44,232 nucleotides of DNA from Chitinophaga pinensis (GTDB taxonomy: Bacteria > Bacteroidota > Bacteroidia > NS11-12g > UBA9320). Position 1 is the first letter of the stretch, and every line of letters begins with the position of its first letter. The stretch spans positions 1 to 44,232 of the forward strand of contig CAMDXE010000005.1 of NCBI GenBank assembly GCA_945878925.1. Direction: 5' to 3'. This document shows, in pieces, positions 2,519 to 5,401 of the stretch. Position numbers and translations under genes: made by a program. Under the pieces are notes generated by a model that was not told the origin of the DNA, searched no databases, and saw only the letters and a program-made list of their open reading frames with translations.

Positions 2519-3577
2519 ATGGAAACGAAACAATTAAAAATCAATAATGCGGAATTTGAACATATTTTAATCCTCATTCAAGAGGCAAAATACCGCGTGT
2601 ATGCTAAAGCAAATACTGAATTAGTTTTATTATATTTTAATGTAGGTAAGATAGTTTCAGAAAAAGTAAATGTTGGCAATTGGGGCGAAAATACAGTTCA
2701 GGAATTAGCTGATTTTATCGCTTCAAAACAACCTGGGCTTTCAGGTTTTAACCGAAGGGGCTTGTATAGGATGAAACAATTTTATGAAACTTATTCAAGT
2801 CCTCAAATTGTGTCATCGGTGATGACACAATTGCAATTAACTGAAAATGAAGCTAATAATTTTGTGTCATCTGCAATGACACAAATTAACTGGACACTAC
2901 ATTTGGTATTACTTTCGAAAGTAAAAAAGATAGAGGAGCTATTTTTTTACATAGAGAAAGTCATAAGCGAAAAACTTACCGTTAAACAACTGGAAAGAAC
3001 TATAAATACAGGTACTTACGAAAGAACGCTATTAGGTAACCAAATTGTGCCGCTACCTGTGGCACAATTATCTCAAAATATTTTCAAAGATCCATACATT
3101 TTTGAATTTCTCAACTTACTGGATGGGCACTCTGAAAAAGACTTTGAAATGGCTATTATACTCAACCTTCAAAAATTCATTTTGGAGGTAGGCAAAGGAT
3201 TTACTTATATGGGTAATCAGTTTCGCTTGCAGGTTGGAAATAAAGATTATTACACTGACTTGTTGTTTTATCACAGAGATTTACAATGCCTTGTTTTGTT
3301 TGAATTGAAAATTCAGGAGTTTGAACCTGAGTTTTTAGGAAAGCTCAACTTTTATCTGGAGGCATTGGACAGGAACGTGAAACGCCATAATGAAAATCTG
3401 AGCATAGGTATATTGCTATGTAAAGGAAAAGATACAGAAGTGGTCGAATATGCAATGGCGCGAAACACAAGCCCTGCAATAATTGCCGAATACGAAACCA
3501 AATTGATTGACAAAAAATTATTGGCTGATAAACTGCACCAATTAGCCGAAATATTAAACAAAGACATTGAATTATGA
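2519..3577 (+). CDS. DUF1016 (YhcG-type) PDDEXK nuclease-domain protein
   Basis: 352 residues from the ATG at 2519; an upstream in-frame TTG (2480) is possible but less likely. The N-terminal part (about 10-90: YFNVGKIVSEK, NWGENTVQELAD, GFNRRGLYRMKQFY) is the YhcG_N region. The C-terminal part is a PDDEXK fold with Asp247 (YTDLLFYH) and Glu262-x-Lys264 (FELK), followed by GKLNFYLEALD. Family members often sit beside restriction-modification genes, and here an ATGA overlap leads into a possible R-M stub. Three perfect DNA palindromes lie inside the frame. Relative to E. coli YhcG as I recall it, the peptides they encode (residues about 96-105, 115-122, 175-184) look like insertions. The biological role is unproven. 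Confidence 0.85.
   Translation: METKQLKINNAEFEHILILIQEAKYRVYAKANTELVLLYFNVGKIVSEKVNVGNWGENTVQELADFIASKQPGLSGFNRRGLYRMKQFYETYSSPQIVSSVMTQLQLTENEANNFVSSAMTQINWTLHLVLLSKVKKIEELFFYIEKVISEKLTVKQLERTINTGTYERTLLGNQIVPLPVAQLSQNIFKDPYIFEFLNLLDGHSEKDFEMAIILNLQKFILEVGKGFTYMGNQFRLQVGNKDYYTDLLFYHRDLQCLVLFELKIQEFEPEFLGKLNFYLEALDRNVKRHNENLSIGILLCKGKDTEVVEYAMARNTSPAIIAEYETKLIDKKLLADKLHQLAEILNKDIEL
2806..2832. repeat. In-frame palindrome 1 of the DUF1016 gene
   Basis: AATTGTGTCATC (2806-2817) and GATGACACAATT (2821-2832) are perfect 12-bp arms with a 3-nt loop. The encoded peptide is about QIVSSVMTQL. The TTGTGTCAT half is shared with palindrome 2. Confidence 0.9.
2861..2885. repeat. In-frame palindrome 2 of the DUF1016 gene
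   Basis: TTTGTGTCAT (2861-2870) and ATGACACAAA (2876-2885) are perfect 10-bp arms with a 5-nt loop. The encoded peptide is about FVSSAMTQI, clearly similar to that of palindrome 1. Confidence 0.9.
3043..3069. repeat. In-frame palindrome 3 of the DUF1016 gene
   Basis: AATTGTGCC (3043-3051) and GGCACAATT (3061-3069) are perfect 9-bp arms with a 9-nt loop. The encoded peptide is about QIVPLPVAQL, again I-V-(S/P)-x-(V/A)-x-(T/A)-Q. It lies some 170 bp from palindrome 2. Confidence 0.9.
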
Positions 3578-3699: not shown

Positions 3700-4362
3700 A
3701 TGCAAAATAAAATACCAAGTCAAATGCATCCATCCATTTTAACCCACTTATCCAGTTCGCTTGGACGGAGGGATGAGGGGCCAAATATTGAATTAGCCGC
3801 CCGTCTTGTGGCCAATAACGATCAGGAGGCCATCAAATGTATGGTAGACAACTTATGGACTCGCACCTATCAAAACAATTGTATAAAGGTAATTTATGAA
3901 ATTGGCGAAATCAAACCTTCTCTCATTGTTGCTTATACCAACGAATTCATAAACTTATTGGATAGCCCAAATAACCGTATGGTTTGGGGGGCCATGTCGG
4001 CTCTCAATCGGCTAACGTTGTTAAATCCTCATCCCATTTATTTGTCCATTGTTAAATTGTGCCAAACAGCCGATAAGGGTACTGTAATCACTCGCGACCA
4101 AACAGTGGCTATATTAACAAAACTATGCACTTTTGAGGCCTATAAAGACGCGGCTTTTTCACTACTCATCGAGCAAATGTTGAACTGCGCGGCTAATCAA
4201 TTGCCTATGTATGCCGAAAATGCATTGCCTATAGTGGCGCTTGAAAATAAAGAGGTGTTTTGTTCTGCTCTAATGTCGCGATTGGGCGATATGGATAAAC
4301 CAACCAAAATAAAAAGGGTTGAAAATGTATTGAAGCGTTTGAATAAGCTACCTCAAAAATAA
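3700..4362 (+). CDS. HEAT-repeat-like alpha-helical protein
   Basis: 220 residues, no signal peptide and no membrane segment. The sequence is a series of amphipathic helices (EAIKCMVDNLW, CIKVIYEIGEI, RMVWGAMSALNRLTLLNP, QTVAILTKLCT) typical of HEAT/ARM-type solenoids, probably a protein-binding scaffold. No catalytic motif is seen. It is the first backbone gene after the accessory junction and converges with the wbqC-like gene, overlapping it by 10 bp. Confidence 0.6.
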   Translation: MQNKIPSQMHPSILTHLSSSLGRRDEGPNIELAARLVANNDQEAIKCMVDNLWTRTYQNNCIKVIYEIGEIKPSLIVAYTNEFINLLDSPNNRMVWGAMSALNRLTLLNPHPIYLSIVKLCQTADKGTVITRDQTVAILTKLCTFEAYKDAAFSLLIEQMLNCAANQLPMYAENALPIVALENKEVFCSALMSRLGDMDKPTKIKRVENVLKRLNKLPQK

Positions 4363-4922: not shown

Positions 4923-5401
4923 ACGTTTACCTCAAGTTTATCAGAACACATTTCCAGAAGTTCACTTATGTTTTTTTTAAAAACTGGATGTATAAATTGG
5001 GGACAAATTTCATCAAGGGGCCTTAGCACAAAATTGCGCTCGTGCATGAGCGCATGAGGAACGATAAGCATTGGGGTATTAATAATATTGTTTTCATAAA
5101 ATATAATATCAATGTCCAATTCGCGTTCTTGCCAATGAGCTCTTGATTTTCGTCCTACTTTTATTTCCAAATTTTTAAGCTTTTCTAATATGGCATTGGG
5201 GGCTTGATTGCAATTGAAAAGGACGGCCATATTCAAAAATTTTGCCTGATCGGTATTGCCCCAAGCCTTGGTTTCATAAATTTTCGATTGGAGGGCAGGT
5301 TTTCCAAATTCTAATTCCAATCCCTCAATGCCTTTTGACAGATTGGCAAATCGATCACCCATATTAGATCCCAGATGCAAAATGAGACGATTGGTGTTCA
5401 C
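4907..5401 (-). CDS. folK: 2-amino-4-hydroxy-6-hydroxymethyldihydropteridine diphosphokinase
   Basis: 164 residues, the usual length for HPPK, the enzyme that transfers pyrophosphate from ATP to hydroxymethyldihydropterin in folate synthesis. Signature motifs are present: LHLGSNMGDR at the N-terminus, FLNMAVLF, the family signature RELDIDIIFY around residue 94, and PHALMHERNFVLRPL. It begins 10 bp after gtrA ends and overlaps wbqC at its own 3' end, so it sits inside the ldc-gtrA-folK-wbqC operon. Confidence 0.95.
   Translation of the reverse strand: MNTNRLILHLGSNMGDRFANLSKGIEGLELEFGKPALQSKIYETKAWGNTDQAKFLNMAVLFNCNQAPNAILEKLKNLEIKVGRKSRAHWQERELDIDIIFYENNIINTPMLIVPHALMHERNFVLRPLDEICPQFIHPVFKKNISELLEMCSDKLEVNVWKAN

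Follow-up and report, generated by a model that had tools for sequence, protein, structure and literature searches.

DUF1016/YhcG proteins, the nuclease domain of which was recognised in 2005, are common in bacterial genomes and on mobile elements, with the E. coli K-12 gene yhcG among them. Repressor sites within the coding sequence of a target gene are familiar from the lac system, where the auxiliary operator O2 lies in lacZ. Reported phenotypes of E. coli yhcG are synthetic lethality in combination with weak dnaB, dnaN and parE alleles and an association with restriction and recombination enzymes (PMC2672614); they point to DNA metabolism without deciding on a mechanism. ParB and Noc read a palindrome (parS and NBS, respectively) with two-fold symmetry by means of a recognition helix, and few residues sufficed to switch their specificity (PMC7383237). 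I-TevI, a nuclease with a separate DNA-binding domain, can bind its own operator while cleaving it little, and acts as an autorepressor (PMC2988022). Finally, Rickettsia palindromic elements, which are in-frame palindromes in coding DNA, measure ~100 to 150 nt and are dispersed over many genes (PMC4316617).

The DUF1016/YhcG gene studied here, located in a 44,232-nucleotide stretch of DNA (the window), can be compared with several of these systems. The modelled N-domain of its product has its best fold matches, not significant by E-value, in the DNA-binding domains of ParB and Noc, but it is attached to a nuclease domain rather than to a CTPase domain, and the sites that it putatively reads are longer, odd-centred, located in its own gene and different from gene to gene. 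Comparable to I-TevI would be a nuclease that doubles as a repressor; the I-TevI operator, however, is found upstream, at the promoter, and resembles the homing site, whereas the DUF1016 sites are intragenic, and there is no known homing site for this family. As with lac O2, a putative repressor site is situated within coding sequence, but here in the regulator's own gene, and in 96% of the family over several phyla. In the literature found on DUF1016, YhcG, COG4804 and the candidate defence family PDC-S02 (open-access full text), there was no mention of palindromes, nor was a DNA-binding role described for PDC-S02. The present analysis supplies DUF1016/YhcG proteins, that of K-12 included, with a predicted target of defined sequence, with residues predicted to contact it and with a half-site code open to testing; it also points to coding sequence, in several phyla, that is constrained for a DNA site predicted to be read by its own product, a constraint invisible to protein alignments. 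The many helix/site pairs constitute a natural data set on how DNA-binding specificity changes.

The gene, its product and three palindromes

Both Pfam domains of the window protein, DUF1016_N (PF17761; residues 18 to 169, E = 1e-29) and YhcG_C (PF06250; residues 186 to 339, E = 5e-54), exceed their curated cut-offs, and the protein also matches the PADLOC HMM of PDC-S02 (E = 2e-114). The C-domain shows a fold match to EndoMS/NucS nucleases (E = 1e-5) and contains the PD-(D/E)XK catalytic residues (Table 1). Since D247 and K264 were identical in all 213 family genes in which catalytic residues were inspected, while position 262 was always E or D, the nuclease evidently matters and may act at the sites described below. 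In the AlphaFold model (pLDDT 88.8; 91 for the N-domain modelled alone), helices 57-70 and 79-92 are arranged as a helix-turn-helix, and the top solved structures in a Foldseek search with the N-domain were the DNA-binding domains of ParB, Spo0J and Noc (probability up to 0.99; TM 0.54 to 7o0n). Because the corresponding E-values were 0.2 and above (0.2 to 0.5), we treat the ParB/Noc-like fold as a lead, not as proof. A search for a sequence relation between the DUF1016 N-domain and ParB/Noc found none, and Pfam detected no N-terminal CTPase (ParB/Srx) domain in the window protein. The gene is preceded by a 380-bp spacer (2136 to 2518) with short repeats around GCGTTAG/AACGTTA, which is single copy in the genome (80-base query).

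Table 1. Positions, in the window, of the DUF1016/YhcG gene, its predicted DNA-reading and catalytic parts and the palindromes that it contains
Feature	Position	Strand	Remarks
DUF1016/YhcG-family gene	2519..3577	+	352 aa; candidate ParB/Noc-like helical N-domain and PD-(D/E)XK nuclease domain
Predicted helix-turn-helix, helix 1 codons	2687..2728	+	Residues 57-70; AlphaFold model and mutual information
Predicted recognition helix codons	2753..2794	+	Residues 79-92; AlphaFold model and co-variation
R80 codon	2756-2758		Co-varies with half-site position 7
Y83 codon	2765-2767		Co-varies with half-site positions 8-9
R84 codon	2768-2770		Co-varies with half-site position 5
Intragenic palindrome 1	2806..2832		AATTGTGTCATC-GGT-GATGACACAATT; arms 12, loop 3; half-site GTGTC
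Palindrome 1 centre	2819		First base of codon 101
Intragenic palindrome 2	2861..2885		TTTGTGTCAT-CTGCA-ATGACACAAA; arms 10, loop 5
Palindrome 2 centre	2873		First base of codon 119, where family sites are most often found
Intragenic palindrome 3	3043..3069		AATTGTGCC-GCTACCTGT-GGCACAATT; arms 9, loop 9
Palindrome 3 centre	3056		First base of codon 180, second-domain linker; 40 family sites map there
PD-(D/E)XK nuclease domain	3074..3535	+	D247, E262, K264

The three inverted repeats that the initial annotation of this DNA had reported were recovered at the same places and with the same arms: all are perfect and 25 to 27 nt long, and each has a first codon base at its centre. No other short-loop palindrome in the 44-kb window is as strong as palindromes 1 and 2; palindrome 3 is absent from this ranking because the scan covered loops of up to 8 nucleotides. 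The look-alike peptides of the form I-V-(S/P)-x-(V/A)-x-(T/A)-Q that all three had been said to encode need correction to IVSSVMTQL, FVSSAMTQI and IVPLPVAQL, respectively. Similarly, a location between the N-terminal and nuclease blocks applies to palindrome 3 alone, around which the model falls below a pLDDT of 50 (residues 176 to 183), while palindromes 1 and 2 fall within DUF1016_N, a short way past the predicted recognition helix. A search of the gene's own genome (92% complete) for the hairpin in other genes, as proposed earlier, returned only the first two sites of this gene; the core of palindromes 1 and 2 occurred nowhere else. A second DUF1016 copy in the same genome (L222, contig C165), with an in-frame stop just before the helix, contains the palindromes GATAGTCTCTACATTGTGGAGACAATT before and GATTGTCGTATCACTGATACGACAATT after the helix.

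Symmetry conserved at the DNA level across the family

Homologues were collected from 197 relatives of the genome, a public genome collection, a phylum sample and plasmid, phage and E. coli records, yielding 242 distinct DUF1016 genes, 208 of which were used for site counts. Under a strict criterion, 233 of the 242 contained a strong inverted repeat that occupied the same linker regions and kept to one codon phase; only 35 and 23 sites, across all genes together, fell into the two remaining phases. Perfect or near-perfect repeats were encountered at the same places down to ~31% protein identity, with differing letters (e.g., GTGTCAACAGTGTTGACAC, CTCTCACCAGTGGTGAGAG, CTCGCCACACTGTGGCGAG, GTGCAACAAGCTGTTGCAC and AATTCTGCCGTTGCCAACGGCAGAATT), and statistically the symmetry is clearly conserved. 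The refuting condition named in the initial annotation, homologues that keep the residues while freely varying codons fail to preserve the palindromes, turned out the other way, with codons and residues varying and palindromes staying. Family sites are 19 to 39 nt long, and their centres cluster at a few places in the protein, mainly residues 101 to 106, 119 and 180. One site was counted in 112 genes, two in 77 and three to five in 19, so that 96 of the 208 contain several. Examples were drawn from Bacteroidota, Pseudomonadota, Actinomycetota, Cyanobacteriota and Wolbachia phage WO and, going by the unchecked labels of metagenome bins, Bacillota and Campylobacterota.

Sites within one gene tend to be alike: 81 of 150 such pairs were identical at positions 5 to 9 from the centre (the half-site), versus 7.8% of pairs between genes, and the half-site was still identical in 26 of the 56 same-gene pairs more than 120 bp apart. 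Among the spacings in multi-site genes, 39, 54 and 183 bp dominate, and an examination of helical phasing revealed no common turn multiple among them.

The initial annotation had offered small mobile palindromic elements, inserted in frame as Rickettsia palindromic elements are, as one explanation. Copy number does vary, from one to five per gene, and the O157 allele of E. coli yhcG lacks precisely the 78 bp containing sites 2 and 3 of K-12. Against this, the core, searched for in the gene's own genome and in the 197 relatives, has no further match in the own genome, codon phase is constant at the same few, ancestral positions in 96% of family genes, and the letters track a helix of the host protein (see below). 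Moreover, neither a length of ~100 to 150 nt nor dispersed copies were found for the window palindromes, and the family sites are confined to one gene family. We therefore give insertion of this kind hardly any credence.

When synonymous codons were shuffled within each gene, preserving protein and codon usage, repeats with a score of at least 11 were present in 0.4 to 0.7% of the shuffles, compared to 44 to 49% of the real genes. The earlier judgement that chance is a very unlikely origin is borne out by this comparison, and because codon-shuffled copies almost never reach such repeats, the amino acid sequence does not suffice as an explanation either. Coding bias or a shared peptide was ruled out by these shuffles together with the changing peptides. 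In a set of 58 diverged sites, each the best of its gene, complementary pair cells amounted to 90.4%, against 53.2% after shuffling, and the covariation score was 0.876, against 0.194 for shuffled and at most 0.177 for slid versions. All 11 pairs of the arms change on both sides, and all four base pairs are used. The absolute pairing values are inflated, since sites were chosen for pairing, whereas the diversity of pair types is not.

A second explanation put forward earlier, control of the gene's expression by hairpins in its mRNA, predicts that G-U mismatches should exceed A-C mismatches in the arms. The mRNA stretch does fold more stably than shuffled versions (z = -6.0), as expected of any transcribed palindrome, and a structured-RNA test found the pairs to be kept. 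Nevertheless, with a criterion blind to mismatch type, 52 G-U, 95 A-C and 134 other mismatches were counted; the lack of a G-U preference places the constraint on the DNA and not on an mRNA hairpin. An Rfam search returned no family above its cut-off and, as set out below, the letters of the site follow the predicted DNA-contact residues of the protein, rendering mRNA hairpins a very improbable explanation.

Co-variation of half-site and predicted recognition helix

Mutual information was computed between half-site letters and all protein columns, with residues encoded by the palindrome itself excluded from the ranking. R80 ranked first for position 7 (0.53; next, 0.22), Y83 for positions 8 and 9 and R84 for position 5, and in the model these three residues occupy one face of helix 79-92. 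R80 is accompanied by G at position 7 in 116 of 118 genes, while other residues are in 7 of 95, going with C or T instead. R84 goes with C at position 5 in 96 of 110 genes, and Y, L, N or Q at residue 84 with A; at position 9, W83 is paired with C and Y83 with G, and E83 coincides with C at position 8 in 13 of 15 cases. At each level of protein identity from 20 to 75%, base 7 was the same in 88 to 98% of gene pairs sharing residue 80, versus 15 to 19% of pairs differing in it.

Common descent was accounted for by counting independent pairs of changes on a tree built without the region. Residue 80 and position 7 changed together in 17.2 of 20 such pairs, with none opposite (P = 1.5e-5), followed by residue 84 with position 5 (10 to 0; P = 0.002) and residue 83 with position 9 (9.3 to 1; P = 0.02); control columns were not significant. 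A strong raw association between residue 66, in helix 1, and position 6 was discarded, since it was not significant in the tree control and is thus not independent of phylogeny. Predictions trained only on genes less than 45% identical were correct for base 5, from residue 84, in 89% of genes (majority baseline, 8%) and for base 7, from residue 80, in 81% (62%); for positions 8 and 9, prediction from such genes was no better than the baseline. Helix and sites also change together in near relatives L211 and L212, which are 97% identical elsewhere, and between near relatives L181 and L191 an L84R exchange accompanies a change at positions 5 and 6. The window gene itself obeys the code, combining R80, Y83 and R84 with GTGTC in its first two sites. 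In E. coli, the Nord58 allele has another helix (STRNLWQFKNFY versus SAKNLRQMRLFY) and other sites in a gene otherwise similar to that of K-12. The code is not strict, as position 7 is mixed between C and G among the sites of multi-site E. coli alleles.

Because the half-site co-varies with the recognition helix, an association that the statistics establish across the family, the protein very probably binds the palindromes of its own gene. Recognition by the protein itself, the last of the possibilities raised in the initial annotation, is hereby strongly supported. Template-switch repair of near-palindromes, a known mutational process, could keep the arms matching without any function and thus maintain palindromes neutrally, without selection. 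It would, however, leave unexplained both why, on independent branches, the sites co-vary with residues 80, 83 and 84 and why half-sites more than 120 bp apart are equal, and we assign such neutral upkeep only a minimal chance.

Possible functions and variation in E. coli

What binding would achieve is less certain. With roughly even confidence, we propose from the sequence comparisons that the palindromes are operators for the protein encoded by the same gene, most likely serving a promoter-independent negative autoregulation. The helix-turn-helix of the N-domain, presumably as a dimer, would read two half-sites, with AATT-type flanks lying outside them. The sites would be placed in coding sequence at loops and linkers that tolerate them and, being written into coding sequence, would travel with their reader as one cassette whenever the gene moves. 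Bound protein, on the assumption that binding represses, would form a roadblock inside the gene and stop transcription through it, exerting negative feedback on a dangerous nuclease whose gene comes under new promoters and into new operons time and again. We favour autoregulation because such a roadblock would work behind any promoter, suiting a gene that moves between contexts, restriction operons included, and because two genes carry copies upstream, in the usual operator place. These copies, in L023 and L130, lie 47 and 49 bp before the ATG. They were the only matching palindromes upstream of any of the 208 genes when at least 12 of 14 letters and palindromic symmetry were demanded (a third upstream match was not a palindrome), and downstream, only E. 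coli had one. Copies at promoters or terminators were therefore rejected as the rule, and classical promoter operators are the exception. Their rarity counts against autoregulation, as sites at the promoter would have been the simpler choice for a repressor.

The invariance of the catalytic residues also speaks against mere autoregulation and keeps alternatives involving cleavage or its restraint in play. In one of these, which we regard as rather unlikely, the protein would bind the palindromes of its own gene and its nuclease would act there, or on further copies of that gene on DNA entering the cell, so as to control copy number, exclude other copies or behave in a homing-like way. Such self-targeting would be in line with the active site, invariant in all genes examined, and with known sites that are nearly unique to the gene itself; the nuclease domain has also been likened to Holliday-junction resolvases (PMC1189080). 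Furthermore, specificity diversifies fast among near relatives and same-genome paralogues, as if copies of the same type excluded each other. On the other hand, the gene would be cleaved by its own product, nothing that might protect it was seen beside the solitary genes, and most E. coli genomes retain gene and sites without harm. Nor could avoidance between paralogues be demonstrated: 1 of 54 same-genome pairs had a common half-site, versus 2.7% between genomes, and the idea that paralogues avoid each other's half-site was dropped as indistinguishable from background. Regarding paralogues, two head-to-tail DUF1016 genes (L057, 413-1432 and 1501-2520) differ in recognition helix and in half-site (CGCCA and GTGTC), and a single 2.8-Mb genome (G371) contains eleven YhcG_C matches.

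Alternatively, the sites might serve as a DNA tether or decoy that holds the nuclease inactive, loss or destruction of the gene setting it free, as in addiction or infection sensing. The several sites per gene in 96 of the 208 genes, the invariant nuclease residues, the match to PDC-S02 and the location on mobile elements and beside type I restriction genes would fit this idea. Still, no evidence of toxicity was found, one or a few sites per cell would titrate only a few molecules, and E. coli yhcG deletions are viable (PMC2672614), which makes a tether improbable. In three loci (L246, L247 and L249), the DUF1016 gene was located directly between a DNA methyltransferase or transposase gene upstream and type I restriction S or helicase genes downstream.

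Going beyond autoregulation, it is conceivable, though we advance it tentatively, that DUF1016 proteins are self-recognising nucleases, with an address that diversifies along with its reader, like an immunity type, and tells own copies from other DNA. That reading, to which we would commit no further, would cover exclusion, copy control or a sensor of gene loss rather than mere control of expression.

Regarding variation among E. coli alleles, K-12 yhcG (L245) has sites centred at 4143, 4182 and 4221 and a fourth just after the gene, at 4983. This downstream palindrome differs from its counterpart in O157 (L261, 2133) only in the central base (CAGTG versus CACTG), as expected from a flip of the palindrome; flips of the centre are frequent in the family. 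In several strains (L257, L258, L259 and L265), yhcG is broken by IS remnants or replacements. In H10 and MB06233, the 3' end of palindrome 3 is precisely where homology to K-12 stops. A role of the palindromes as recombination borders was nonetheless rejected, as the apparent breaks at site 3 turned out to be IS1/IS629 remnants or other insertions. All E. coli alleles rejoin the backbone at one common point, near nanQ.
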